Of a DNA stretch of 64,000 nucleotides, positions 31,701 through 63,395 are shown piece by piece (the stretch's first letter is position 1; each line of letters begins with the position of its first letter). Both the position numbers and the translations under genes were made by a program. This DNA comes from Incurvaria masculella (lineage: Eukaryota > Arthropoda > Insecta > Lepidoptera > Incurvariidae). The stretch lies in assembly GCA_946894095.1 (NCBI GenBank), contig OX335643.1, forward strand, positions 5,877,036-5,941,035, read 5' to 3'. The notes below the pieces were generated by a model. That model saw only the letters and a list, made by a program, of their open reading frames with translations, was not told where the DNA came from and ran no database searches.

Positions 31701-34700
31701 AACATGAATTCACAAAAAAAGAAAACCATGCAGAACGTATAATATGCCAAGAAGCACTGCATAAAGCGCCCTAACAACGATACATTTAAGGCTGAAATTG
31801 CTACGAATCGATATCTGTTGAAGAGTAACAATTTGCTGCAACGCTAATTGAGACGGTCGAAAAGTCGCGTGCGAGTATAATCTCTAATTTTATATCGATA
31901 AGGGCGCTTATCGTATGAAATATTTTAGGATTATATGATATGCATGGTTTTCTTTTTTTGTTAAATAAAGATCATAACATTATACGTTGTGACTATTATA
32001 CGTTATGCATGGAGAAATAAGTAATTTAATTTTTTGGACTTCTTCATGCACTACGTATAAGATTATACGATCTGCCGATTATATTAGTTGGGGAAAAAGT
32101 TTCTTCGCATTTTTTAAGAAAATTCAAAACATTTTTTAATATGGTTTATTTACATTTAACTTAAGTATGTAGGTACCATTTTGTTCGATAACTTTTTGCC
32201 ATCTTGTAGGTAGGGACATGATCCCATTGCTATAGAAATATTGGGACTTCTGATCAATATACCGCGACAAGTGGTTTTGGCAGTCCTCTCGTGATGTTAA
32301 CCTGACACTGCCTAAAGAATTCTGAAGAGACCTAAACAGGTGGAAATCTGAAGGTGCAAGGTCAGGACTATACGGCGGATGCATTAACACCTCCCAGCCA
32401 AACTCTCTTAGTTTTTGCTGAGTGGCTAAAGATGTGTGAGGTCTAGCGTTATCATGATGAAAAACCACACCCCTTCTGTTGATTAATTCCGGCCGCTTTC
32501 TCTCAACTTCTTGCTTTAATCTCATCAGTTGTTCGCAGTAGAGTTCAGAATCGATGGTCCTGCCTGGTGGTAACAGCTCATAATGAATAATGCCCTTCCA
32601 ATCCTACCACACACACAGCATCACCTTGTTGCGAGTTAACCCGGGTTTCGCCACAGTCTGTGAAGCTTGACCGGCCTTTGACCACGACCTTTTTCGCACG
32701 TTCTTGTCGTACGTGATCCACTTTTCATCACCAGTTATCAGCTTCTTCAAAAATGGTTCGGTTTCATTACGTCGTAATAAAGAATCACAAATGAGTACAC
32801 GGTTCATTAGGTTTCTTTCAGTGAGCTCGTGAGGTACCCAAATATCGAGCTTTTTTGTGTACCCAGTTTTTTTCAAATGCGCCAAAACTGTTTTGTGGTC
32901 AATTCCTAGTTCTTCAGCTACGTCGTAACTACTGATATGCCGATCTTGCTCCACTTTTTCAAAAATGGCATCCATTTTATCCGTAATAGGGCGACCAGAG
33001 CGACGTGCATCTTTGACATCAAAATTTCCGGATTGAAAACGCTTAAACCAAATTTGTGCTACTCTCACAGACACTGCACTAGGTCCATAAACATCGCAAA
33101 TTTTTTTCGCGGCTTGCGTTGCATTTTTACCTTTTTTGTAGTAAAATTTTAAAATGTATCGAATTTCTTCATTAGATTCACTCATTTTGACAGTACGAAA
33201 AACAAATGAGAATCACACATTTTCCTAATTTGAATTTGGAATTATGTTCTTTAAAATTTAAACTTTCAATGATACCAAAACCAGCCAGATACAAATAGTA
33301 TAGCCAAAGAGATTTTATTACAAGTTCATACATACTATAATGCGAAAAGACTTTTTCCCCGACCTATTACGTTGTGCATGGTTTTAAAATTTTGTTAAAA
33401 TATGACATTATACGATCTGCATATTATACGTTATGCCGTTCCCCCGATCCACGGAGGAGGTGCGATCGCATTCGACGCGATGCGCAGTTCTTTGTCCGGT
33501 AGGGGGTTTTGATCAGAGAGTATGGAAGGACGGGAGTAGAAACGAAAACTAGCTTGTATGGCCGCGGCGGCGCGGCGGCGTAGCCACGAGTTAGTGGAAA
33601 ACGTCTTCTAAGTAAAGACTCTTATTACACACATACTAGTCTTAGGGCCTTTTTCACCTACTGCTGTTTAGCTTAATCGCCATTTAGGGCCTTTCTTAGC
33701 AGCTTGCAATCAATACCAGTACAAGATAAACAGCACTTTAGTAATAAAGGCTATTTAAGTGTCGATTAAAATAAATCAGCACTTGGTGAAAACCAGGCTT
33801 AGTCACAGGACTCTTATTTAGTGTAAAGAACATTCGAAGTTGCGCGTCCCGAATTTGTAAGCGAAGGACCTACATTAGAGTTACCATGTTAAATAACTCG
33901 CTGGGTGAACCGGCAAGTGAGTGAGTAAAAGTATCGTTTTGTTGTATTCGTTCGTACCATGCCAACTGGTACATTTCAGTTCACTTGACCATCCTGAGCC
34001 TTTAGTCCGACTTCTTACCTAAATTGGCGTTTACGCCGAACCGATCGACTAGCGTTTTCAAATATATGGAGAATAGAAGAGCGCGCGCAGTAGGCGTTAA
34101 GAGAACTATTTGCGAGTCCGAGTTTGAATTGACACATGACGCATATTCGCCGTAAATACGTAGACGTTGCCCTTTACGCATTTTCATACAAATCGGTGGT
34201 CTGAGTTTGTTTTTGACGGGTTCAAGAAGTAAAACCACAGAATAGATTGTAAAACTCGTACGGGTTTGACGTTTTTACGTAACTTACGTATTACGTATGG
34301 CTATTGTATGGTAATGCCTGTATACACCTGAATATAGTAATTAAGATAATTTTAGTATGACTATAAACTTCAATGTATGTGTATTGTAAATTTAATTACT
34401 GACTCAAAATTCTGAGCGGTGATATTGAAATTGGGGCAACCAAAACCGATTTTCAATTAATTAAATTATTAAATTTGTGTATCTGCTCTTCTGGAACCGA
34501 CAGATTGATGACGTGTCCAAGTGTAGGTCACGTAGGTTTGGATAAGAAATGAAATTAAGGTGGCCCAACCCGCTCATATCCCCATACAAAAGGGGAAAGA
34601 AGATCACGCCCATATTTCTTGTCAGAGATCCAAAATTTTGCTCAAAGTAGCTTTATTTGATCGAACTAGATGTCTGATGACCATTGGCATTGTAAAATTG

Positions 34701-37700: not shown

Positions 37701-40700
37701 AACATCTCGCCTCGCGAAACCACGCTCAGCGAGACGCCATGCCAGCGGATTGGCGGACTATGGCTGAGCTATCGAGCTTATTCGAATTACGCTTGAAGAC
37801 TCCCAGGTTATAGGTATGAGGAAAGGCATCCGCCGGTAGACAGTTCCATATCCATAGTGGTATTTTAGCCATCCATGTCTGGCTGCATACATAAGCAGGA
37901 CTCACACACGAAGGGTTCCGTACCATCGTACAAGATTTAACACAAAAGAAATCACGTTATTTGTTTGGGGCCCCCTTTATTTTTTTGTTTTTTATTTTAC
38001 CTATTTGTTATAGCGGCAAAATAAATGCACACCCCGTTTACGAGATACCGCACTGTGACAGACGGACGGCCGGACGGACGGACGGACGGACGGACGGACG
38101 GACGGACGGACGGACGGACGGACGGACGGACGGACGGACAGCGGAGGCTTAGTAATAGGGTTCCGTTTTCACCCTTTGGGTACGGAACCCTAAAGAGAAG
38201 GTCCCGCGCCCCTGAGCTACGAGCCGCTTAGTGTGCTAGGCTCGTCCTTTGTCGCTGCGGATTGTCTGGAGCGGGGTCGTCGGCCTTCACCGGCGCGCCG
38301 CGTACTACGCACGTGACGCGCAATGGGAATTGAAGGAGGCTTCGACGCATCCGTCGGATTGATAAAGGAACATGCCTCGAATTGGTCTCAGTGTCCAACA
38401 GAGTTATGGCATGTGGTAATGGAAAGTATTCTGTTCAGATGTTATAATCGGCAACAACTTAAATTCCATTGCAGAATAAACACGAAACCTAAATCGTTTT
38501 TGTAGTAAAACACAATTGGTGGTCATAAAAATCGACCAAGTGCACTTGCGTCGAGTCGGACTCGCACACGGCTCAGTGACAGACGGATGGACGGACGGAC
38601 GGACACCGAAGGATTATCAATAGGGTTGCACCATTAGTACCCAAATGTCTCAGTTGTCACCTAAATTGGCGTTTACGGCAAACCGATCGACTGGCGTTTT
38701 CAAATGTATGGAGAAATTAAAGAGCGCGCGCAGTGGGCGTTAAGCGAACTATCATTTGCGAGTCCGAGTTTAATTTGACAGCTTACTCAACGTTGCCGTT
38801 TACGTCGACTCCGCGTTTTCATACAAATCGGATGTCCGAGTTTGACTTTGACAGCTTGTAGAAGTAAAACCACAGAATATCTAGTAAAAATTTGTATGGA
38901 GTTTGAAGTTTGTTACGGAGCTTCGAAGTTACGTAAACGCCAATTTTGGTGAGAACTGAGACTACCGGCTCGGAACCCAAAAAGTCTGAAAGAACGCTAA
39001 GCGAAAACGAAGTCATAACGCTGGCGGGCGATGCGAGCGGAGACGCACTGCGCTCCGCTGCCGCCGCCGCGCTACTCCCGAAGAGCGGGGAAGTTGGTCG
39101 CCGGCGCGGCCGCTCGGGGCGGCTCGCGAGCCTGCCGCTGGTGGCTCGCGAGTCCGGCCGTCACGCCCGCCGCCGATGGCCTTGTTCCGAGCCAGTTCAA
39201 CGGACAGCTGATGCGCTGCGTCGCCGGCCGCGGTCCGATTGTGCCGCTCCGAATGGATCTAGAAATGTCGGCGTCTCAGTTCTTCGTTTCGCTGATCGTT
39301 TTCAATTATTCGAAAAAAAAACACCCGTGTGTTAGTAGATTCGTTCACAGGGATCGTCGAAATGTTCGAGATAAAGCAACAGCGGGAGCACAAACGCGAC
39401 GATACGGCTGCATCGATCGGCAAATGTGTTTTTGTTTCGCTTTTCGTGCGAGCGGAAATGAGAAAAATAGACGTTTCGTTCGTTTGTGCTTCCGCTGCTG
39501 CAGCTAGTCTTCAATCGTTGTTAACGAAACGATCAAATAGATGTTTAAATTGTCAGTGGTCTTGGGGCTATAGGACTTGCCTTTCATGCCAGAGGTTACG
39601 GGTTCAAATCCTCGCCTCGGTCATTCACCACTTTAATTTTTGGATAAGTGCATTTAGTTACGAACGCGAGCTATTCCGTGGTTCGGAACCCACATGAAAC
39701 GATGAAAATGCGATCGTACCAACCCGGGCGGGGTTTAATCCTACCACCTAGTAGGGGAAGGGGACGTACAGCTCTATTCAGAGTGGGCGGACTAACTTTA
39801 GTACGTTTTTAAAGGTCAGACTAAACCGGTTTTTGTATGGTTAGTCCGGTGCTAATCTCGTACTAAGTTTTGACAGGTCCTCTGTGAATATAACATGCAT
39901 TGCGAACCATGGAGCAGCTCGCATTCGTGACGAAATGCAGGCGAGGATTTGAATCCATACCTCTGGTATGCTAGCCAAGTCCCCGCACCACTAGGCTACG
40001 AGCCGCTCAAGTAATAATATTCCGGGAGGTCACGACATTTTTGGTCACGATAAGCTAAATGGCTGAATCTGGGTTCAAATGTTAGAGACCAACCCTCTGA
40101 TGCTAAATATGTCGGTCTGCCTGCGCCACGTGGTTGCGTAATCTAGATTAGCTATATAAAATATTGGTATGCACCTGCTGATGAATATACTGATTGGGTA
40201 GAAATAATGATATTTATTAATTATACAACAATAACTAGTCGGTTTTTTAATTAAATACTTAAATATTTCTGAAGTTATATTTGTAACCTAAATCGCCCCT
40301 AAATACGAAACGCAACCAAAGATTTGTTAAATTTTGGTATTGCTAAGCAAGTATGTACTGATACTTTCATGCTTCGTTATTTGCAGCCATTTACCTTATC
40401 ATACATATTTTTTGTCACCATATCTACTTTTTCTGGCGCCTTATCTACGTAACGCAACCACTTAGCGCAGGCAGACCGACACATTTAGCTTCGGAGGGTT
40501 GGTCTTTATCCTGTGAACCCAGTTTCAGCCATTTACGTTATCATTACCATTTTTGTCGCGACCTCCTAGTCTATAAATTAAAAAAAAAAATATGATATCA
40601 ATCGAGGCACGATAATGAATCGTTGAAACGGCCAACGAAACGAGCTAGTCCGATTCCGGCGAGAGGTTGCGCCGTCATTACGCAGCGGTGGTTGACCCGA

Positions 40701-43700
40701 GTACTGGAGACGGACTCGAATGTTACGCTTCCGCTTGAAGGAACTGAGTAGTTGCATCTGTGCACGACAAAAAAAGCTAAAAACGTGAACAAAAGGTTTC
40801 CTTTGGCAGGATTGATATTTGTGCTCCTAAGAATAATTTCAGAAATGGGTGCCACCTGAAATATCGATGCGGGTAGGGGGGTGGGGGAGGGGGTCAAAGA
40901 TTTCGACCGCCCTACTTCACTCTGAGCTTTATAACTGCGTCATTTTAGCTATTAGGGCATGTTTGGTATCGTTTCCGTATAAACAAGGGACGCCCAATTC
41001 ATTTCTGTAATCAAATTTCCACGGATGAGTAGTAAAAACCTAAGATATAAAAAAAATCAAATTTCACTTACGACTTTTGCCAATTTATGTGAGAACTGAG
41101 ACTACGGGCTCTGATCACGGAGGAACGAAGTTGTTCGTACGATTAGAAATGTTTATCTCATTATTCTTAATTTTATGTAATTTTAGAACTAAAATTTACT
41201 TATTAAGAAAATATAGGGTGAAATGCACAACATCTACGGTTAAGGTGGCCCTTCCCGGCGTGACCAACACACATGCGGGCACCGTACAAAACCGTGCTAT
41301 TGCGCTCTAGGACCTTCTATGTTTCAAGGAATAAGACAGGCTCCGTGATGAGAAGGATGCAACATGTTCACAAAGCAGACAATGCGCATAGTGTTTGATT
41401 TGGTAAGATTTACGAAAATTTTAATTACGAAACGACTTCTAGCTAAAAGTAAACCACGACCGCTGTAGTCAAAAATCTGACAAAAACTAAATTGATTAAA
41501 AATTTTCATGAAACAAGCTATGTCTGATGACTAATCTTTTTAAGATTTTATGGTTTAGTCCACCTCCAAAGTTATTGTATAAAACACGCGATAAATTCGA
41601 ACTTTCAAACCTTATAACTTAGAAACCGAACACAAATGTGCAATGCCAACGGTCGTCAGACATCTAGTTCGATCAAATAAAGCTATTTTTTTAAAAATTT
41701 TGGATCTCTGACATGATATGGGCATGATCTTCTTTATTTTATTTTATTTTATTTGGGAAATCAACAGCGTGTTACATCACAAGTTAACATAATATATGAG
41801 CTAAAATATGTTGCCAATTACAGATTTCCTCTAATATAAACAAAGTAAAAGTAGACACCAGACACAAATTCTGGTTAAGTATAGAACGTTCATTACAGTA
41901 CATAAGTTGTATTTAAATTAGGTAATAGTAATTAGGTAATAAGCTAATTGCTTAAATTTAAATGATACATTTTCTTTCTAGACGACCTTGTGCTTGTTTA
42001 ATGTGTGAATGTGAGTGGGTGTTTGTGAATGAGATGGCCTGAGGGTGTGAGGGTGTGTTAGGGTGTGCGAGGGTGTGTTAGTGTGTGTGTGTATGTGAGA
42101 GAGAGAGGGAGGGTGTGTGTATGGGTGAGTGATATGTGTTTCATATTTATCTGTTTTCTGTATCTTTTAAGATATTTAGTATTTTTATTTTAAACTCTCT
42201 TTTTGTGTTTATAAAAGGATCAACATCATTAAAGTTACGATTGTACTTATTGAAGATTCGAAACATGACCGAATTTTGAACGTAGTTTGTGTAATGTAGG
42301 GGGATATTGAATAAGTGTGTATGTCGTGTGCGTCGCGTTGGCACGTTAATTCCAATTTCGCCGACGAGCTCCGGACAGTCGACTCGACTATTCACTAGGT
42401 CATACAGCAGCCCCATATCCAGTACGGTTCTTCTATCTTCTAGTGGAAGTATATTGTAAAATGTACAGCTCCTTTTATAAGAATCAAACTTTTGCTTACT
42501 TTTGAAGTTTAAAAATTTAATGATTTTTTTTTGTATTCTTTCAATTAGGTCTGAATGGGTTATGTATTGAGGAGACCAAATACACGAACTATATTCAAGA
42601 ATACTTCTGACATATGCAAAGTACATTGTCTTTAAGCACTCAATATTTTTAAATGGTTTGGCAACTCTCATAATAAATCCCAGGTTCTTGTATGCTTTAT
42701 CTGCAATGGCATCTATGTTATAGGTAAACAGTAGCTTTGTATCCATTATTACACCTAGATCACGTATAGTTTTAGTCTTAGAAATTGGAATGTTGTTTAA
42801 TGTGTAATCAAATACTATGGGATTCGATCTGCGGGTGAATGTTATGTGCTGACATTTACTAGCATTTACATTAATCCTATTGACAGTATAATAATCTGAG
42901 AGGTCATTTAGTTCTTTTTGAAGTTGCAAACAATCAGAATGAGAACGAATAACTTGTATCACCTTTCTTTCCACGTTTGTATGGGTAGTTGAGCGGGAAG
43001 AATTACAGAATAACAGAATTAAAATCAGTGGGTTATGGCTTGGCTGTCGAAATTCGACCGGACTTCCGGGTGGAATATATTTTCTTCCTTGTCCGGTAAA
43101 CATACTCGAGGAATGCATTTTGCCATGCATTTTGCATTTTACATCTGCCATGTTTCGCAAAAATAGGCGCGATCGAAAAGCAAACATTTCGTCACGAATG
43201 CGGGCTGTTCCATGGTTCCAAATCCATCTAAATCTGTAGGTAAACTCCTCTTTCCCGGGGAGGACCCGTCAGGCTTGGTACCATCGCATTCGATAAAAAG
43301 GTGGCCGAAACGGCAATGACAAATTGTCTGTGTTTTCCATCCAGTTCAATGTAGCCGTGCTCATAAAGGGACGGTCCAACGACTTCGGGAATATGATGTG
43401 TTCGGCTAATACATTCACAAGTACCGACACACCGCACGGGAACTAAGCACCATACATGCTCCTTGCATTGAACGGCTACATTTAAATGGATGGAAAGCAT
43501 GGATGTAAAAACGGTATCACCGTAACCGGACTTACACATACATTGTCGTTAAAATTGCCAATGCCTACGGTGGCGTTTACTGTGACGCGCTCCGTACCTG
43601 TCGATTGGAAACAATGCGAGCGGTATCAGATAAGAAGTACGTTTTCTTACACACGAACGGTTCGCTTGCGAGACAGTGAAAGTGTGGGTTAGGTTGCTTA

Positions 43701-46700: not shown

Positions 46701-49700
46701 GAAACGAATGCTAACGCAAAGTAGTACTTTGTGACGTCACTTTGACACATTTTGTATGGACGAAATCTCAAAGTAATTCAAATTTACGTCACAAAGTACT
46801 ACCTACTTTTCGTTAGTCTTAGTTTCTGTTACGACTATTTATCTCAGCCTTAGATGTGACTGAATTTACTTGTAGTTGTGGCGACATATGTAAGCTATAC
46901 CCATCCTTAGATATGACAGCATTTACTAGTGATGACCATCCCTAGATGTGTCAGAATTTACTAGTGATAACCATATTTACCTGAATATTGATATTAATAG
47001 CATTCCTTAGATGTTACAAAATTTACCGGCGATAATCATTCTTAGATGCGACAAAATTTACCAGAGATTACCATCCGTAGTTGTGACAGAAAACACATGA
47101 GGGATAACTATCATTAGTTGTGACAAAATATGCAAGTGATAACCATCCTTAGAACATAATATACACAGCGAGAAGATATAATTTACTAGAAATAATAATT
47201 CTTAGATAGCACGAAATTTACCAGTGATAATATCTATCTTCATTCTTAGATGGGACATAGTTTTACTTGTGATGGAAAATATTAGTCGTGACAAAATATG
47301 CAAGTAATAACCTTCCTTAGATGTGACATAATGTAGTGATAATATCACTATGTAACAAAATATGCTACATGTGAATTGACGATCTTGAGACGGCCTCAGT
47401 GACTATAGATTTTTTTTAGATTCGTCTCCATAACTTAAATGCCGATCATCTCCACCAGATGTAACCTTTCCTTTCGATCGCAAAAATAATCCAAATAGAC
47501 CGGGATAGATACGGTTTGAGAAGCATATGTAATCCGAAATGAATTTTTTTTTCTCAGAAATATATAATTTCATGTTCATATGCTTACATTAAGTTTGCAA
47601 CATTTAGAGGGGCCCGGAAGATAGAAAAAAAGATTAAAATATATTAAAAAATATATATCTCCTAAACAAATTTTTAGAAACGGTATTAAAAAAGTTTATA
47701 TGTTAAGTCTTATAAGGCGTAATGTAACTATGAATTTGCAACAATTTTGTAATTACGGAAATGTATTTTAAAAAATGTTTTTACTAAAAAAAATCTATGC
47801 CGCGAACCTTACTTGCTAATGCTATATTTCTTTCTAGAATATGTAAAAGAAAATTAATTTTTTTATTCTGTATAGTTTTTAGAATGTTGCAAGTCTTGGA
47901 ACAGTGTTTTTTTTTAATGAAAACTTTCTCATGCTATAAATTGGTATACAAAAAATCTCTGGTAATCTAGGTCAGTCCCCGCGCCTGTGCTTACATGCGC
48001 TACATTCACACAGCGAAGTGGGTTTAGGTCCGTGTGCGAGATAAAACTGATATTTACAGCAAAGATTTAATTAAACCTTGTTCCAGACAACTTGTGTTGT
48101 TGCAAAATGAATAGCATCTTCTTGATAGATGAAACTATACAACGAACTATTTTAACCGTATTTCGAATTTTTTGTTTAGCTTTTGTGTGAATGTAAAAAT
48201 TATAAATGAAAAAAAATGTGCTTCTAATATTTGCAACATTTTACAAATTTCACTGAAAATAGAGTTTGCGGTCAGTTTCCAATTTCAGGAAATAAAATAG
48301 AGTTTTCATTATTTGCTTTCCAGATATTATGAAAAATATATTTACACAGTTCCGTAAATTAAAAATTGTAGCAAATTCACAGTAATATTACACCTAAAAT
48401 TAGCTAACATATAACATTTGAAATAACATTTCTAAATATTTGTTTATGAGATATCATTTTTTAAACATATTTCATACTTTATTTCTATCTTCCGGATCCC
48501 CCAAAATGTTGCAAACTTAATGTACACACGTCCACATGAAATACTACGTTTATGAGAAAAAAAAATGCATTTCGGATTTAATGTTTTTCTAAGTGCTGAT
48601 TTAAGCCTAAAGTTCCTGGAGTAAAACGTTGTTTTTCTTCATTCCAGATGTACCGTCGTGCTGTTCAACCAGCGGAAGAACCGCCAGACGCACGTGCTCA
48701 ACGCGTCGCGCAAGTCGGTCACGTGCGTCGCGTTCAGCCCGGACGGGCGCTACCTCGCCACCGGCGAGTGCGGGCACGCGCCGGCCGTGCGCGTGTGGGA
48801 CCTGCAGGACCCGAGCGCCGCGGCCGCCGCGGTGCAGGTCGCCGAGTTCTCGGGCCACACGCACGGAGTCTGCTGCGCGGTCAGTGTGTGCACCTAGTCG
48901 CTCTAGTCTGTCGGTCACGTGCGTCGCGTTCAGCCCGGACGGGCGCTACCTCGCCACCGGCGAGTGCGGGCACGCGCCGGCCGTGCGCGTGTGGGACCTG
49001 CAGGACCCGAGCGCCGCGGCCGCCGCGGTGCAGGTCGCCGAGTTCTCGGGCCACACGCACGGAGTCTGCTGCGCGGTCAGTGTGTGCACCTAGTCGCTCT
49101 AGTCTGTCGGTCACGTGCGTCGCGTTCAGCCCGGACGGGCGCTACCTCGCCACCGGCGAGTGCGGGCACGCGCCGGCCGTGCGCGTGTGGGACCTGCAGG
49201 ACCCGAGCGCCGCGGCCGCCGCGGTGCAGGTCGCCGAGTTCTCGGGCCACACGCACGGAGTCTGCTGCGCGGTCAGTGTGTGCACCTAGTCGCTCTAGTC
49301 TGTCGGTCACGTGCGTCGCGTTCAGCCCGGACGGGCGCTACCTCGCCACCGGCGAGTGCGGGCACGCGCCGGCCGTGCGCGTGTGGGACCTGCAGGACCC
49401 GAGCGCCGCGGCCGCCGCGGTGCAGGTCGCCGAGTTCTCGGGCCACACGCACGGAGTCTGCTGCGCGGTCAGTGTGTGCACCTAGTCGCTCTAGTCTGTC
49501 GGTCACGTGCGTCGCGTTCAGCCCGGACGGGCGCTACCTCGCCACCGGCGAGTGCGGGCACGCGCCGGCCGTGCGCGTGTGGGACCTGCAGGACCCGAGC
49601 GCCGCGGCCGCCGCGGTGCAGGTCGCCGAGTTCTCGGGCCACACGCACGGAGTCTGCTGCGCGGTCAGTGTGTGCACCTAGTCGCTCTAGTCTGTCGGTC

Positions 49701-52700
49701 ACGTGCGTCGCGTTCAGCCCGGACGGGCGCTACCTCGCCACCGGCGAGTGCGGGCACGCGCCGGCCGTGCGCGTGTGGGACCTGCAGGACCCGAGCGCCG
49801 CGGCCGCCGCGGTGCAGGTCGCCGAGTTCTCGGGCCACACGCACGGAGTCTGCTGCGCGGTCAGTGTGTGCACCTAGTCGCTCTAGTCTGTCGGTCACGT
49901 GCGTCGCGTTCAGCCCGGACGGGCGCTACCTCGCCACCGGCGAGTGCGGGCACGCGCCGGCCGTGCGCGTGTGGGACCTGCAGGACCCGAGCGCCGCGGC
50001 CGCCGCGGTGCAGGTCGCCGAGTTCTCGGGCCACACGCACGGAGTCTGCTGCGCGGTCAGTGTGTGCACCTAGTCGCTCTAGTCTGTCGGTCACGTGCGT
50101 CGCGTTCAGCCCGGACGGGCGCTACCTCGCCACCGGCGAGTGCGGGCACGCGCCGGCCGTGCGCGTGTGGGACCTGCAGGACCCGAGCGCCGCGGCCGCC
50201 GCGGTGCAGGTCGCCGAGTTCTCGGGCCACACGCACGGAGTCTGCTGCGCGGTCAGTGTGTGCACCTAGTCGCTCTAGTCTGTCGGTCACGTGCGTCGCG
50301 TTCAGCCCGGACGGGCGCTACCTCGCCACCGGCGAGTGCGGGCACGCGCCGGCCGTGCGCGTGTGGGACCTGCAGGACCCGAGCGCCGCGGCCGCCGCGG
50401 TGCAGGTCGCCGAGTTCTCGGGCCACACGCACGGAGTCTGCTGCGCGGTCAGTGTGTGCACCTAGTCGCTCTAGTCTGTCGCTCACGTGAGTGTCGTTCA
50501 GCCCGGACGGGCACCTTCTCCATCCCTCGAGGGCTAATATTGAAATTCACATTTGCCTATGATTCACAGTCACGAACTATCTTATTCATGGAATGACCCT
50601 GTATAATTATTCTAATTAGAGTGCGATGACACAACATACAATTTATCAGCGGTGATTGATGGATTGTCCATATAACCTGCACAGAAATAAGTTTATTTAA
50701 GGTGGGATAAAAAAAAACAACAAAATATCCCCATGGATGCTTCACATAAAATCTTTCGTATCTTTATATTCATTGAAGTACAAGTATATTCAATGTGATC
50801 CCATTGATCTCAGTGATCAATCGGTGAGCACAGACTTTAAAAATGTTTGCCCATGGACCTTTTTTTTTCTTTTTCAGGCCTTCTCTATGTCATCGAAATA
50901 TCTAGTCTCGGTCGGCTCCCAGCACGACATGATCGTTAACGTATGGGACTGGAAGAATAACCTCAAGCTAGCTTCGAACAAGGTAAAGTTCGCCACAAAC
51001 GAATTTGATTTTAGATATATTTTTTCTGTATTCTACTTAGATTTCTTAAATTATGAAGGGTTTGCTTGTTGGTTCGAGTTCCAGCTTTATTACTGTTATT
51101 ACTGTGTGATCGCTTCACGATTAATCCTACACGAATATCATCAGCGGTCAGATTGCTGACGCCTCTGTTTCATAATATATGTATAAAAGTTGCTTCCAAT
51201 TTTATAAAAGTTTCGAATCACTGAGTATCACGAGAATTCTACCCAATTTCTACCGTTCTAACTAAAAAATAATCCCCAACCACCATTTTGGCTTCAGACG
51301 CAAACATTTATTTATTTATTTACGACATAATAATATGTAGGTAAATACATATAAAACTAAAAATAACATATTCATAGTGTAATGTAAATTACAGGCCTAT
51401 ACAATTTCCTACAAGCAAAGACGGCCTAATTAATTTAAGTACTAGTTACACACAAAAATTAATTAAATTTTTAAAAGAGAAAAACTCACTGAGTGAAAGA
51501 AATATGACAAGGAAAAAAAAACAAATCAATTGCTGAATGTCCTGCCATGGCAACAGATTAAAAGGATGAAAATTGTACGATGGTTGGCTTCATTCAGTAG
51601 ACTGTTAATATGTGCACGGTGTAGGTGAATCCGTACCACGAACAACGAATTCCTTAGTCGTCTCTTAGGGTTTTCAATTCATTTTTAATACTTTATCTTA
51701 TTATTACAGGTGTCATCTCGTGTTATGGCAGTAAGCTTTGCGGAAAATGGCAACTACTTCGTCACAGTGGGATTCCGGCTTGTCAAATTTTGGTATCTCG
51801 AGTATTCAAGAAATGCTAAGGTATGACTCTATGTCGACTATGTCACTGTTCTATTGTTTTGTTGGTTGTCTCCTAAAACAGAATACGGTTAATGTTTACA
51901 GTAGTACACAGGCTAAACAAAATAAACGGAAATTGTGCATAATATTTTTTTTTCTATTCAATATTAAAATGATCCCCTATAAAGTAATCACCATTCGATA
52001 TAATACACGTCTTACAGTGTCTTTTCCATTATTTAAGGAGCGTGTGCATCAAAGTAGATGGCGCCACGGTCGTTCGTAGTTATTTCTGCTATAACTCCTT
52101 AAAAACAGGATGTCAAAAACGATTACGGTAGTGGCGAGCACATAAAGCAATGCATTTTTTTACTTGACAGTTCGATTCGGTCTTTATCGGCCAAATCGGG
52201 CAACTAAGGTTTGTGGCATCAATAAAGTCTCTGTAGATGATGAATAAAAATTACCCTATTTGTCAGTCGAAGGAGCCGGTGCCGCTGATGGGCCGCTCGG
52301 CGATCCTCGGCGAGCAGAAGGACAACGAGTTCTGCGACGTGCGGTGCGGCCGCGGCGCCACCGCCGACAGCACGTACGCGATCACGCGCAGCGGCCTGCT
52401 CTGCCAGTTCAACAGTCGGCGGCTGCTCGACAAGTGGCTCGAGCTGCGGGTCAGTCGCCTCTTCTCTCTTGCATCCTTGCTCTTTCTGTCTCACATTATC
52501 TGTCTCCTTTACTCAATGTGCATCTTTATTAATACTTCCTAATTTCTCACTTGATTTGTCTCCTATTCTCTTTCATTCCTCTAGATTCAACTTTTATTAA
52601 TCTCTGTCTCCATTTCGTGATTTGAAATAACATCTTTCATCGCCGTTATGTTACGAATTTCTTTCGGGATCATTGCTTTATTGATTCTCCCCTCTTTGTT

Positions 52701-55700
52701 CAGTTCTCCTTTGTCACTTCACTTTAATTTATTTTCTTATTTCCCCTCTATATCTCTCTTCTTATTATTTACTTCCTTTTGCATTTTCTGATTATCCGAC
52801 AAATTGTGGAAAAAAAATCCATACATATAAATTTGGCTATTCAATATTAGCCTTTTTTTTTAATGCAATCCTGGTTTAAAATGAAATTACAAAATATTTG
52901 CTCTACTTTAAATAATAAATAAATACTTCCTTTATATCCTCCCGAGCCTCTGCTCGTGACAGAATCGAAGATATTTTTTTCCTGGATAAAATGTTTTCTA
53001 GGTCATTCTTTGACCCAAAAACACTATCTCTATGCGAATCTAATCTGTTGGACGGGTGCGTTTCAGACGACATCGGCCAACTGCATGGCGATAGGCGCCA
53101 ACTACATCTTCGTGGGCTGTGCGGACGGCATAATCCGGTGTTTCTCGCCGTCGACGCTACAGTACGTCACCACCCTGCCGCGGCCGCACTACCTCGGCAT
53201 CGACGTGAGCCAGGGCCGAGACATCAGGTAAGAGTCGGGCCGCTCTAGGTAAGACAGGGAGCATGGCAATACGGTAGTAGCAACTGAATTCGTTTGCATG
53301 GGAGCGGCGTAGCCACTTTTACAAACAAAAACGGTAGGCGGGTTTACCTTACCATGACGAATACCAATACAAAGACCATGACTACTGTTCCCATATGCGT
53401 ACGTAATAAATTATGAGTGCAGCAATGATAAGAATATTATTAAGAAACGGTAAAAACTTAATGTCTTATTCAGAGAGAACCTGTCAAAATTTAATACGAG
53501 ATTAGGCATACAAACACTGGTTTCATCCGGCGTATTAAAGTTAGTCCGCCCACTCTGAATATGGGTGTTACATTTTCGATATGTCCTTTAAAAACACTCA
53601 CCCTGGCCAAGGATACCACCTTAGATTTATCTATTATGTAATTTAGTAGTGTCTCACGATTTGTGATTCTCGATTTTGGCTGTTTTGAGGGGTATTCGCG
53701 CCGAATTTGTTCAGTGCTAACGGCTGATTGCAATACGCAATAATGTGCGCTCGCTTTATTGCATATTATTTTTGAAGGTAGGTAGGTATTTAGGCAAAGT
53801 AGTGGATGAGAGATCTTAAAGAAGTATCTAACAACCACGAAGAACGAAGAAGTGAATATGCACGCACAGTACACGGCGACCGTTGCAGGCACATGTTCAG
53901 CCCGCCGGCCGGCGCGCGCTACCCGGACGCCGTCGCGCTCACCTACGACGAGCGCAACCACAAGCTGACCTGCGTGTACAACGACCACAGCCTCTACGTG
54001 TGGGACATCCGGGACATTAAGAAGGTGGGTGCTCCTATTGGCTTTGATATTAGTGTTTAAGGTGGGCCCTTCCCGCCCAACTGCCCATGCGAACTTGGAA
54101 AGAAGATCGTGCGCATATTTCTTGACGGCGATGCAAAATTATACTGAAAATAGCTTTATTTGATTGAACTAGATGCTTGACTCATCCTCATCTGTATTGC
54201 ATCCTCCTCATCACGAAGACTGTCTTGTTACAAAGAAAAAGATAGGATCCGTGATGAGGAGGCTGCAACATGTCCACAATGCATACAATGCGCATAGTGT
54301 TTGACTTGGTAAGATTTCCGAAATATTATTGGAATTTGTTTTGCTATTTAAGCGCCCACCTTTTAGCGGCATCACCTCTTTTTATTTTAAGAACAATAGA
54401 AAAAGGGGGCAAAATATTTTTATTCAAACTTGAGAATACATTGTTCTACACATGTGTATTGAAGGATGCAGTGTTCGACACCACGTGTGTAACATCCGTA
54501 ACAACATTTTCTCACTCAATCAAGAAATGTTCTTTAGAACTGCAGTGATCCATACGTGTGTAACATTTGTAGCGACGTTTTCAATTCACGCAGGTCGGCA
54601 AGTCCACATGTGTGTAACATGTGTAACGACGCTTTTTTATCCACGCAGGTCGGCAAGACCCACTCGGCCCTGTACCACTCGGCGTGCATCTGGGGCGTGG
54701 ACATGGCCGGCGCGGACTCGAGCCCCCTGCCCCCGGGCTGCTTCCTGACCTGCTCCAGCGACGACACCGTTCGCTACTGGAACCTTAAGCCACCCCACGA
54801 GGGACCGCTCGCCTCCAACATTTATAGCAAGGTGACCCATCTCTTCTTTTAATGTGTTGATAATTCAGATATTTAGCAATCTCATAGGTCAATCATTGCA
54901 ATCTATGTAGCTCGGGGGTGCCATTACTTGACTATCATGCCAAAAGTCATCGGTTAAAATCCCTGCCCTGTTCATGAACCACTTTTCTTTCTCTTTTTGA
55001 GTTGGATAAGGGCATTTTCATAATTCAATTTTGCTTGGGTAAAGGCCAGCAGTTCGAACCTGGAAATCCTACAACGCTTTCAGAATAATGTCTTCCGCAC
55101 AATCACAAACGCCCCATGGTTCGTAAAAACATCAGAAACGCACGAATACCTGCAAATGCCCACAATAAAAGATGAAATAAATAATGCCTCCAAACGCTAC
55201 TCTCCGACTAACGACTCATGTCAACAAGCTGGCTGTAGCTCTTACCGATACTACAGAAAATGTCAGAAGATTGAAGCGGCATGTTATTGCTAACCTAGAC
55301 AAGAGAACATAAGATGCCTATACTTACAGACCACTCATAACAGATAGCCATCCAAAGGGAGCCACTATCTCATTCTGGTCTTCAAAGCACTCAAAAAACC
55401 TGCTTATAGTGTGCCCTGATTGCAGATGGCCAAAAATAACAAAAAAAAGGGCAATTCTTTCGGGGATGCGATGCGTTGGGTTTATATCATGACGGTGGGT
55501 GAGGTATTAGACCTCTATGTCTAGTTACATTTAAAAAGCATATATTGCATTAGGAGTACAGAATTAATCATCACCATTTTCAATGCTTTTATGCAGGTGA
55601 CAATTGCGTTGGTACTTCTTTTTCAGGAACTCCAAAAAGTGATATATATCGACCCTGAACTAAAATTTCTGAAGGACGTGGACCTGACGGCACCGAGCGA

Positions 55701-59145: not shown

Positions 59146-61923
59146 CTATGCTGTTATTAGATCTTGGGGTGCCCTTCTCTTCAGTCTAGTGAAGACCCTC
59201 CTCGGTTTCATCAAGTTTGAGGCTAATTTATTTGGGTGTTCATCGAGTCTTGATTTGTATGCTGCTGTTTTTGTTTTAGCTTCCTCCTTTACTGATGGGA
59301 TTTGGAGTTCCAGATGGAGCCTGTTGTTCGTAACATACCATGGTGCGTTGACAATCATGCGCAGAATCTTTGATTGAAATCTTTGGAGGATTTCTAGGTT
59401 GGAGTTAGCGGTTGTGCCCCATAGTTGGATTCCGTATGACCAGATAGGTTTGAGAATAGTTTTGTATAGGAGGAGTTTGTTTTTGGAATGAAGTTGTGAT
59501 TTGGGACCTATAAGCCAGTAAATGTTTCGCAGTCTTTGACTAAGCGCTTTTCTTTTGGTAAAGATGTGTTTTTTCCATGTAAGGCGTCTGTCCAGGTAGA
59601 CACCTAGATATTTAGCATCGTTGGCCTGAGGTATTGGACAGCCATTAAGCGTAACTGGAGGGCAGGTTTCTCGTCTAAGTGTGTAAGTTACCTGGACTGA
59701 TTTTGTTTCATTAGCCTTTATACGCCACTCTTTCAACCATGAGGATATTTTATCAAGGCTTTTCTGTAGATTGGCTGATGCTTTTAAGTTATTTTCATTA
59801 ATAGCCAGGGCAGCTGTGTCATCTGCGAAGGTACCCATTACTACTCCTTCGGATAGAGGTAAATCTGCTGTAAACAGTAGATACAAAGTAGGGCCCAGAA
59901 CACTTCCTTGGGGCACCCCAGCATGAATTTCGTGGAGTTTTGTCACCTCTTCGCCATGCTTTACAAAGTAATGTCTGGATTTCAAGTAGGATTTCAGAAA
60001 GATGAAGTAATTTATGGGAAGCATTTTTTTTATTTTGTAAAGTAGTCCATCATGCCAGACCCGATCAAAAGCCTTGGATATGTCAAGGAAAGCGGCTGCG
60101 CAGTACTTTTTATGTTCAAATGTGTAGTTTATATTATCTACAAGCCTATGTATTTGTTCAATAGTGCTGTGCTTTTGCCTAAATCCAAATTGATGGTCAG
60201 GGATCAGCTTGCTTTTCTTTACTATAGGTAATAAACGATTTAAAAATAGTGTTTCCATTACTTTGGAGAGGACTGGAAGCAGACTTATTGGGCGGTAGGA
60301 TGACACTTCCTCAGGACGTTTGCCAGGTTTCAACACCATGATTATCTGTGCTACTTTCCACTGGGGAGGCATAAACCCTGCTCTCAGTACTGAGTTGAAT
60401 AACTGCGTTAGGAAGAGTAGGCCATTGTCAGGTAGTTCTTTTAATACCTTTGCGGTTATTAAGTCATAGCCTGGGGATTTGTGCGGTTGCAGTTTTTTTA
60501 TGACCGAAGATACTTCAGTTTTTGTGAACTTAGTAATGGGCAAGTCTAATTGATATGTTTCATTAAGTATTGATAAAGCTTCTTCTTCAACATGAGCCGG
60601 GCCTTCGTTTGGATTCGGGATGAATACTTTAGTCAGGTGTTTAGCAAAAGCTTCAGCTTTGTTGATGTCACTCTTTGCCCACGTATTGTCAACATTGCGA
60701 ATTGGAGGTTTAAAAGTGATGGGACGTGTGAGGCACTTTGTAGCCTTCCAGAGTGAGTAATTTGTTTCAGCTGTTGGGTCTAGGTGCGTGAGATATTTCT
60801 CGACCCTCTGATTTTTCTCCCTGCTAAGTAGCTTCTTAAGTTGAGCAGTTTGAAAGTTAAGTTTTCCCTTATCCGCTGGGAAACGTGATTGCTGCCACAG
60901 TTTCCTAGCTTTACGTTTCTCTGCTATCTTATCCCTTATGGTTTTGGAGCATTGGGGTCTGCTAGGGCTGGTTAGGTAGGATGGAGATGCAATCCAGGCG
61001 GACTGCTGGACACAGTTATTAAAGTGCTCTACTGCATATTCAATGTCGTCATCTGTCTTTAGTGGTACGTTTGTATTGAGGTTGGATGACACCAACATCC
61101 GGAACAAATCCCAGTCAGTTTTTAGATTATGGAAAGTGCATGGTCTCACTTCTTGGCTGACTTCGCTGTTTATTGTTACCAGGACTGGAGAGTGATCAGA
61201 CGATAATTCCAGCTTTGCTTCAGCTTTTATGTAGGCGTTGGCGATTCCTTTTGTTACACAAAAGTCTATCAGGTCTGGCGTTTTTGCAGTGTCTGTTGGC
61301 CAGTAAGTCGGGTTGCCACAGGAAACAGCGTTTAGTTTAAGAGCTTGCATAGCGAGCAAAAGTTGGCGTCCTTTGGTGGTTGTTAATCGAGATCCCCAAT
61401 TTGTATGTTTGGCATTATAGTCTCCGCCAGCTATGAAGCGTTCACCTAACGTGCTAAAGAATGCCTTATATTCCTCTTTGCTTATCTTGTGTTTAGGTGG
61501 GCTATATAGAGCAGATATGGTGAGGCATCCCAACCAGTCTTCAACTTCGATGCTTGTGGCTTGAATCTTAGTTTCGCAATAGGCTTTTAGTTCATGATGC
61601 TTAATGTTCTGTTTTATGAGAATTGCTGAGCCACCATGAGCAGAGCCATCGGGGTGCATTGTGTGGTATAATTTGTAATTTGGTGTTTTAAAATGGCTTT
61701 TTGAGGTAAAATGGGTTTCCGAAATTAGTAAAATATCAATTTGGAAAAGATTTAAGAATGTTTCCACCTCTAGGATATGATTTGACAGCCCGTTGGCATT
61801 CCAATGAACAATTTTTAGTCGCGCGAATTTTGTGACATTTTGGCTGTGAGAGTTATGAGCATGTTTGTCATAATTGCCATTTGTTGCATCATCTGGTTTA
61901 GCATGCCCATGAGCTCGCGCATA
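59146..61923 (-). CDS. Jockey-type ORF2: endonuclease and reverse transcriptase
   Basis: The frame is open from just after a stop at 61924-61926 to 59146. The first Met is at 61767, but the conserved endonuclease N-terminus (KIVHWNANGLSNH) lies upstream of it, so translation must begin without ATG or by coupling to ORF1. Counting from that Met: endonuclease 1-200 (SETHF at 16-20, GGDYNAKH at 114-121, SDH at 190-192) and RT about 425-700 (SYRPISLLPVLSK, QFGFRQKHST, AFLDISKAFDRV, GVPQGSVLGP, catalytic FADD at 647-650), then a C-terminal region ending near 873. No stops or frameshifts are seen, and all catalytic motifs are present. It is likely capable of target-primed reverse transcription. Confidence 0.93.
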   Translation of the reverse strand, partial: YARAHGHAKPDDATNGNYDKHAHNSHSQNVTKFARLKIVHWNANGLSNHILEVETFLNLFQIDILLISETHFTSKSHFKTPNYKLYHTMHPDGSAHGGSAILIKQNIKHHELKAYCETKIQATSIEVEDWLGCLTISALYSPPKHKISKEEYKAFFSTLGERFIAGGDYNAKHTNWGSRLTTTKGRQLLLAMQALKLNAVSCGNPTYWPTDTAKTPDLIDFCVTKGIANAYIKAEAKLELSSDHSPVLVTINSEVSQEVRPCTFHNLKTDWDLFRMLVSSNLNTNVPLKTDDDIEYAVEHFNNCVQQSAWIASPSYLTSPSRPQCSKTIRDKIAEKRKARKLWQQSRFPADKGKLNFQTAQLKKLLSREKNQRVEKYLTHLDPTAETNYSLWKATKCLTRPITFKPPIRNVDNTWAKSDINKAEAFAKHLTKVFIPNPNEGPAHVEEEALSILNETYQLDLPITKFTKTEVSSVIKKLQPHKSPGYDLITAKVLKELPDNGLLFLTQLFNSVLRAGFMPPQWKVAQIIMVLKPGKRPEEVSSYRPISLLPVLSKVMETLFLNRLLPIVKKSKLIPDHQFGFRQKHSTIEQIHRLVDNINYTFEHKKYCAAAFLDISKAFDRVWHDGLLYKIKKMLPINYFIFLKSYLKSRHYFVKHGEEVTKLHEIHAGVPQGSVLGPTLYLLFTADLPLSEGVVMGTFADDTAALAINENNLKASANLQKSLDKISSWLKEWRIKANETKSVQVTYTLRRETCPPVTLNGCPIPQANDAKYLGVYLDRRLTWKKHIFTKRKALSQRLRNIYWLIGPKSQLHSKNKLLLYKTILKPIWSYGIQLWGTTANSNLEILQRFQSKILRMIVNAPWYVTNNRLHLELQIPSVKEEAKTKTAAYKSRLDEHPNKLASNLMKPRRVFTRLKRRAPQDLITA

Positions 61924-63395
61924 TTAGTGTGATCACTAGGACACTGGTTTGGATTTAGGTTATTTTCTGGTGGAGGCTTTGGGTTTGATGAGCTATTTTG
62001 GTTATTCTGAGGCATATCTGGTTTCGTCTTGTTGCCTACCGATTGAGCAAAGGTCATATTGGGCATTATTGTGTTATTCTTGCTGTAGTCATAGAAAACT
62101 TTTGGGACTTCCTTGCTTCGCAGGGGGGGATACTTTATTTTCTGTAGTTCACGGTAGACTGAGCAGCCTTTATAATTGGCAGGATGATTGCCGGTACACA
62201 AAATACATTTTACATCATCCGACTTACCTTTTCTTTCGCAATTTGCGGAGGTGTGGTCACCAGCACACTTAATACACTTTGGCTTGCGACGGCAGTATGA
62301 TTTAGTGTGCCCATATTGCTGACAGTTTGAGCATTGAGGAATTTCTCTTTTAGGGCGCGGGGGCTCGAAGATGATACGGCAGTGCAGCAGACTTTTAATG
62401 TCATAAATATCTTTATTATTTGCTTTTGGTGACATTTCAATCATAAAAATTGGTAGAGGTATTTTAGTTCTACGCTGTCTGACATTCCAAATGTTAGCGA
62501 CGCTGTGCCCGAGATCACTCAGTGCTGTTTTGATTTCCTCTGTGTCGCAGGAGGGGTGCATGTTTTTGAGCACTACTTTAAAGTTTCTATCGTGCTTGGG
62601 CTTATATGTGTAACATTCAGTGTTTTTTGCTTCCAGTTGTTTGACGATAGTTGAGTATGCTCCTGGCGTTCGTGGCTGAGTTTTCACCTGTTCGTTACGT
62701 AGGACTTTGATTTCATAGTCCCCTGCAGCATGTATGTTGAGTAGGTTAAGCAGAGGTTGAATGTTGCCTACTTTATCTACGAAGATGGGTGGGGGCTTTG
62801 CTGTTTTTTCTTCCAATGGATTTTTGGATAATGACTTTTCTATTTTCTCTTGTTCGGGTTCAAGGTTGTCTTGCTCGTCTTCTAGTCTCTCAAATCTGTT
62901 TGAGGTGGGTAAAGGTTGACTTAGCCAGTATGTGCTGATTTTAGTTTGTTTGATGTTCCTAGTAGAGGATTCAGGACTCTCCCTCATTCTTTTTCTGTGA
63001 GGAACTTTGCTCCAGTCTTCTTCCTGGTCATCTTTTGGGCTTTTAGCTATTTCAGTGCAATCTTTTTAGCTTTGGGACCTGAATGTTAGGTCATTATGGG
63101 AGTTAGAGCGACGTCTGTTCAAAAATAAACTTTTGTGAAAGATTTGTTGAGATAGTATTTTGTTGTTCGTTGTTGGTTTGAGTTGTTGGCTAGTTTGGCT
63201 GATGGGGTCATCTTCGATGCTGCTTTCAGTGTTTTCCTCGGGATTCAGATAAGGTGAGTGAGGCGGGACAGGGGTCAGATCATGTCCACTTAGGTTTTTT
63301 AAGGTATTGGATTCCATTTTTGTTCCCACGATTTGGGTCGATTTAACAGGTCGCTTACAGGGTGACGCCCTTTCCCGTAAGAAGGCGAAGTACAA
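61815..63395 (-). pseudogene. Jockey-type ORF1 (gag-like, zinc knuckles), one nonsense codon
   Basis: One frame runs from a Met at 63395 to the stop at 61815, interrupted only by TAA at 63066-63068. The upstream 109 codons and the downstream 416 codons are in the same frame, so one substitution would account for the break. The 390 codons from Met 62987 hold a PRE_C2HC-like region (about 140-205) and three zinc knuckles near 219-232 (CSNCQQYGHTKSYC), 238-250 and 261-275, then a Gln/Asn/Met-rich tail. ORF1 proteins coat the RNA and are needed for retrotransposition. Internal initiation at 62987 could give a shortened protein. Confidence 0.88.

Follow-up and report, generated by a model that had tools for sequence, protein, structure and literature searches.

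A 64,000-nt stretch of the genome of the moth Incurvaria masculella (assembly GCA_946894095.1, contig OX335643.1, forward-strand positions 5,877,036 to 5,941,035; hereafter the window) carries an orthologue of WDR62/MAPKBP1 in which the end of exon 3, its splice donor and the first bases of intron 3 stand in nine exact tandem copies. We think it rather likely that this is a young, donor-spanning tandem repeat which grew by unequal exchange, whose expansion has been mostly silent and whose copy number probably varies. The array is unusual because most of each unit copies protein-coding sequence. Short reads and gene annotation are poor at revealing repeats that straddle a splice donor. In the moth gene the end of an exon is present in eight copies beyond the original, and the reading frame is, by sequence, intact.

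Tandem Repeats Finder (TRF) placed an array of period 196 and 9.2 copies at 48714-50512 (Table 1; all positions are those of the window). Its nine full units of 196 bp (48714-50477) show 0 differences from the first, and each consists of the last 166 nt of exon 3 followed by 30 nt of intron that include the donor, i.e., 85% of the unit is coding; in unit 1 the coding part amounts to 1 nt plus 55 codons. An earlier note on this DNA had described just such identical units, each with 55 in-phase exon 3 codons, a GTCAGT donor and an in-frame TAG, and this description holds. It had let the array run from 48715 to 50515, which needs correction at the far end, where the exact units give way to a diverged 35-bp stub (50478-50512). 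The left edge is sharp and lies within coding sequence, with agreement at 14/60 of the bases preceding units 1 and 2, while on the right all similarity stops past the stub. No further occurrence of the 182 tested 14-mers of the unit, or of their complements, was found elsewhere in the window. Nine exact copies of 196 bp exclude a chance origin.

Table 1. Features of the exon 3 array and its surroundings (window positions; a slash marks the actual or possible splice point)
Feature	Position	Strand	Basis
Exon 3 when donor 1 is used, 232 nt	48648..48879	+	joined frame, Pfam match
Unit 1 (166 nt exon 3 + 30 nt intron 3); only unit joined to the true acceptor	48714..48909	+	
In-phase AG/GT in the coding part of unit 1, present in all units; possible proto-splice site	48836..48839	+	
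Donor GTCAGT (GCG/GTCAGT) of unit 1	48880..48885	+	
In-frame TAG, kept if any distal donor is used	48895..48897	+	
Units 2-9, eight exact 196-bp copies within intron 3	48910..50477	+	
Identical donors of units 2-9	49076, 49272, 49468, 49664, 49860, 50056, 50252, 50448	+	
Diverged partial tenth copy (35-bp stub), 31/35 identical, with donor-like CAC/GTGAGT at 50487	50478..50512	+	
Exon 4, 105 nt, symmetric (skipping would preserve the frame)	50878..50982	+	joined frame

The gene that carries the array is the lepidopteran WDR62/MAPKBP1 orthologue. Its 12 modelled exons with GT-AG borders join into a single open frame of 622 codons, the translation of which scores 520.9 bits against PF24780 (cut-off 496.3) and 366.1 bits against PF24782 (cut-off 290), i.e., above the cut-offs of both MABP1/WDR62 WD40 domains of Pfam, as the name Wdr62 in the earlier note would lead one to expect. 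Among the best 120 of 807 rows, the closest two relatives are the Lepidoptera Tuta absoluta (82%) and Plutella xylostella (77%), and the five non-lepidopteran proteins in the alignment reach 51-69%. A motif search for exon 1 of WDR62 found no match within the 64-kb window. The open joined frame also agrees with the earlier exon assignments: only unit 1 follows a real acceptor (before 48648), exon 4 begins at 50878, and the other eight donors lie in intron 3 at 48880 + 196k (k = 0..8 for the whole series), with the last and nearest to exon 4 at 50448. Two exon 3 motifs occur once each in the proteins of 9/9 lepidopteran relatives, a protein comparison that is silent about introns.

Several familiar kinds of repeat describe the array poorly. 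Duplication of a whole exon, including mutually exclusive exons, was rejected as an explanation, as units 2-9 contain neither an acceptor nor the first 66 nt of exon 3; a Dscam-type array is built of whole exons, each with an acceptor and a donor to itself, and here, in addition, 196 is not a multiple of 3. The unit also exceeds the 15-100 bp or so of classical minisatellites (PMC3618361, in its account of their unit size). Its G+C content is 73%, for which we considered and dismissed GC-biased conversion: the G+C fraction at third codon positions is 0.98 in the repeated part and equally 0.98 in exons 6 and 8. A special RNA fold was likewise discarded (no excess structure in the unit, z = -0.17), and Rfam gave 0 matches at the gathering threshold in the window.

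A short series of exchanges could have built the array. An older, short duplication of exon sequence would have left a 35-bp homologous stub 30 nt inside intron 3; unequal exchange between the exon segment and this stub would then have created the 196-bp unit, which later rounds of unequal exchange, or of conversion, may have brought to nine copies and kept identical, coding copy included. In a single-copy ancestor the exon segment and the stub would have been spaced by 196 bp (the unit length, by construction), so that unequal exchange would explain the array in one step, with expansion after it. The stub is older than the units, with 4/35 bases changed, and nine exact units beside a diverged edge copy are as expected if the interior of an array is homogenised while its edge decays. 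Such an array would be tolerated because the copies pile up downstream of a donor that still works.

Units 2-9, presumed to be unconstrained, show no difference across 1568 bases, and with 0 differences among all nine units the view that identity implies recent amplification or exchange, already expressed in the earlier note, stands. By the rule of three this corresponds to at most 0.0019 changes per site. Divided by the rate of 2.9e-9 that PMC4271535 gives for Heliconius melpomene, it allows no more than about 6.6e5 generations since the copies were identical (3.5e5 to 1.5e6 across the interval of the rate), a loose bound that assumes a star-like history.

Exact identity of all units can also be produced by an assembler or polisher, in which case the copy number would be an artefact and the true array shorter or longer. 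We regard this as unlikely given that the window contains no N, that the 622 codons are free of frameshifts, that a retrotransposon frame of 925 aa is open and that a distinct, diverged stub bounds the edge of the array. Most long reads would cross the whole 1.8 kb of such an array. The array is real in the sequence and likely to be real in the genome.

At sites invariant in nine lepidopteran relatives, changes found only in the window number 3/47 in the repeated part and 17/387 elsewhere (p = 0.47). This absence of enrichment led us to reject accelerated evolution of the repeated part and makes unit 1 look like an ordinary exon under constraint. The repeated part does contain one extra codon, within an alanine run. 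There is thus no sign that exchange has damaged exon 3 or sped up its evolution.

The mostly silent character of the expansion depends on which donor is used. Judging from the frame and from exon length, the first donor should finish the normal 232-nt exon, with units 2-9 removed as part of the intron. Use of donor 1 gives an exon of 232 nt and an intron of 1998 nt, use of donor 9 an exon of 1800 nt and an intron of 430 nt; donor 2 already makes an exon of 428 nt, compared with 92-211 nt in the other 11 modelled exons. Without its eight extra units, intron 3 would measure 430 nt, and modelled introns 4-12 span 446-1178 nt. Exon length speaks for donor 1 and intron length for donor 9.

Some observations weigh against this reading. 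Donor 1 pairs only weakly with U1 (-4.7 kcal/mol for the predicted pairing with the U1 end, a crude measure of strength), which makes it the second weakest of 12 donors (range -4.4 to -11.0), and 11% of the window's GT sites equal or beat it; the exon 6 donor is GTCAGT as well. Both the donor-like CAC/GTGAGT of the stub (-5.3) and the CAG/GTCGCC inside each unit (-5.6) score slightly better. Under intron definition, moreover, the donor nearest exon 4, with its 430-nt intron, would be favoured. With better-scoring competitors and a weak donor 1, splicing need not always keep to the first site, and since U1 pairing is so crude a measure, donor choice cannot be called from sequence. The identical bases upstream of the donors (166 shared by donors 1 and 2, 1538 by donors 8 and 9) mean that short junction reads into exon 4 cannot reveal which donor was used; it can be read from full-length complementary DNA or from the 30-nt TAG segment in mature RNA. 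As the donors are identical in sequence, position remains the main variable in their choice, which makes the locus a clean natural experiment on donor selection by the spliceosome. If copy number varies among individuals, the locus also tests the effect of array length on WDR62 dose.

Use of any distal donor would, as the earlier note had it, keep the TAG at 48895 in the transcript. The units after the first do not share its frame, but translation would meet this stop before reaching them. The truncated product would comprise 113 codons of the window (exons 2-3 and read-through). One motif sits at residue 108 in Bicyclus anynana and at 61 in the translated window, which suggests that exon 1 adds about 47 residues and that the truncated protein would have about 160, more than the roughly 135 previously estimated. 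The TAG precedes the end of any extended exon by at least 178 nt. Nonsense-mediated decay should clear transcripts to which occasional distal donor use has added the stop and long extra sequence. They would be present at a low, probably unregulated level and are probably decay-bound noise.

The same features could be put to regulatory use. In a length-variable poison cassette, competition among the nine identical donors would set the share of nonsense transcripts, and copy number would tune WDR62 dose; nine equal donors, each pairing weakly with U1, and an in-frame TAG so far ahead of the end of the extended exon speak for it. There is a precedent, the nearest of the known cases compared, in the variable number tandem repeat (VNTR) of intron 18 of human ABCA7 (PMC5954066). 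Its unit of 25 bp opens with the GT of the exon 18 donor, and the human reference has 23.7 copies that vary slightly. If one such unit is retained, the frame shifts and a premature stop follows, and the array is linked to Alzheimer's risk (PMC5954066). Both arrays begin with the donor directly after the exon, and in both the next exon can be skipped in frame. In the moth, too, every unit carries the exon's donor, presumed to work in unit 1, and it follows from the letters alone that retaining a unit brings in a premature stop (48895-48897). The two differ in that the moth unit has 196 bp, 166 bp of them coding exon, in nine exact copies, whereas the ABCA7 unit has 25 bp and varies. Unit retention in ABCA7 did not vary with array length (PMC5954066), which speaks against copy number as a tuner, and we would give the cassette only a small chance.

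What did change with VNTR length in ABCA7, according to PMC5954066, was the exon downstream: longer arrays came with more skipping of exon 19 and lower expression. By analogy, longer arrays in the moth might raise skipping of exon 4, which is symmetric at 105 nt, so that the first propeller would lose 35 residues without a shift of frame. This is an analogy only, and the acceptor of exon 4 is the most T-rich of the 12 modelled (70% T). We hold such an effect of array length to be decidedly improbable.

Extra WD blades through in-frame inclusion of units were also considered and set aside as weak rather than excluded: in-frame AGs are present, and the ten AGs in the unit have 5-30% T upstream compared with 15-70% at the 12 modelled acceptors, the ranges overlapping. 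The acceptors bear equally on a silent form of intronisation, in which the AG/GT inside each unit would let whole units splice out between copies, leaving a normal messenger RNA and harmless distal donors. An in-phase CAG/GTC is present in every unit and pairs better with U1 than the real donor does, and for Drosophila a model has been published in which tandem duplication of a proto-splice site yields a new intron (PMC2891723). Before this AG, T makes up 5% of the bases and pyrimidines 50%, whereas the 12 modelled acceptors have 15-70% T and 45-85% pyrimidine, and every step would have to be assumed; we hold silent splicing of this kind to be very improbable. If it did occur, it would be intron gain by tandem duplication caught under way. 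The Drosophila cases described in PMC2891723 share the duplicated exon sequence with AG/GY, found here as the CAG/GTC of each unit, and that description notes premature stops for such introns; there the duplications became introns, whereas here an existing intron was lengthened by eight copies and a stub.

Taken to its extreme, exon 3 would lie within a homogenising array in which exchange or conversion with eight unconstrained intronic copies can rewrite the protein, and the nine donors and AG/GT sites would form a length-dependent switch among normal, nonsense and exon-4-skipped transcripts. We find this combination improbable. The 6-16/IFI6 minisatellite reportedly has a 12-bp unit. To go by the title of Turri et al. 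1995, it is a tandem repeat that supplies multiple splice donors to a transcript. Among human genes in segmental duplications, PMC2812944 describes internal tandem repeats at exon-intron boundaries that alter splicing, with 27 intron modifications; these resemble the moth array as variable tandem repeats at such a boundary, and differ in having units of 30 bp on average, repeated 4 times and found by comparison of paralogues, instead of 196 bp repeated nine times. No paper on such a repeat in WDR62 was among the matches listed in the literature search. The kind is thus already known; what is new, as far as the literature found goes, is that 85% of the unit is coding and that all nine copies agree exactly.

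Local duplications occur at other splice sites of the gene. For each of the 24 modelled splice sites we took a probe of 81 bases with the site at its centre and compared these probes with 1238 positions taken every 50 bases outside the array, counting as local any copy within 500 bp that spanned the probe centre. Such copies were found at 3/24 splice sites (donor 3, acceptor 9 and donor 10) and at 13/1238 background positions at E up to 1e-5 (19/1238 at 1e-3); for the stricter set, Fisher's p is 0.003, or 0.03 with the array itself left out. The test was devised after the cases had been seen, and its background positions depend on one another. An initial, looser control pointed in the opposite direction: with E allowed up to 0.05 and the array not excluded, 42/200 random positions had another match no more than 2 kb away, which is not below 3/24. 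Enrichment of local copies at splice sites is suggestive at best, and fits the simple idea that duplications at splice borders are tolerated because the outermost copy still yields the right exon.

A tandem pair of 54-bp units (54549-54657) spans the exon 9 acceptor and so mirrors the array at exon 3; if the upstream copy of the acceptor were used, the exon would start at 54594 and gain 55 nt that include an in-frame TAA. The exon 10 donor region (14 nt of exon plus intron, 55729-55774) has a 46-bp copy, 96% identical, 241 bp downstream (55970-56015), which reads CT for GT.

Elsewhere, one annotation of the Plutella xylostella orthologue has a second exon 6 module (GRSAILG...LLDKW) and another lacks it, possibly an exon duplication or else an error of assembly or annotation. 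Intron 2 of the moth gene (27750-48647) measures 20.9 kb, compared with 446-1998 nt for introns 3-12, and contains, by eye, at least two transposon-like frames, both on the minus strand (32604-33185 and 42147-43187). After exon 13, antisense to the gene, lies a non-LTR (long terminal repeat) retrotransposon on the minus strand (59146-62987), with a 925-aa frame for endonuclease and reverse transcriptase and an upstream 390-aa frame with CCHC-like motifs, as seen by eye. A GACG microsatellite of about 21 copies with 96% match occupies 38057-38139.

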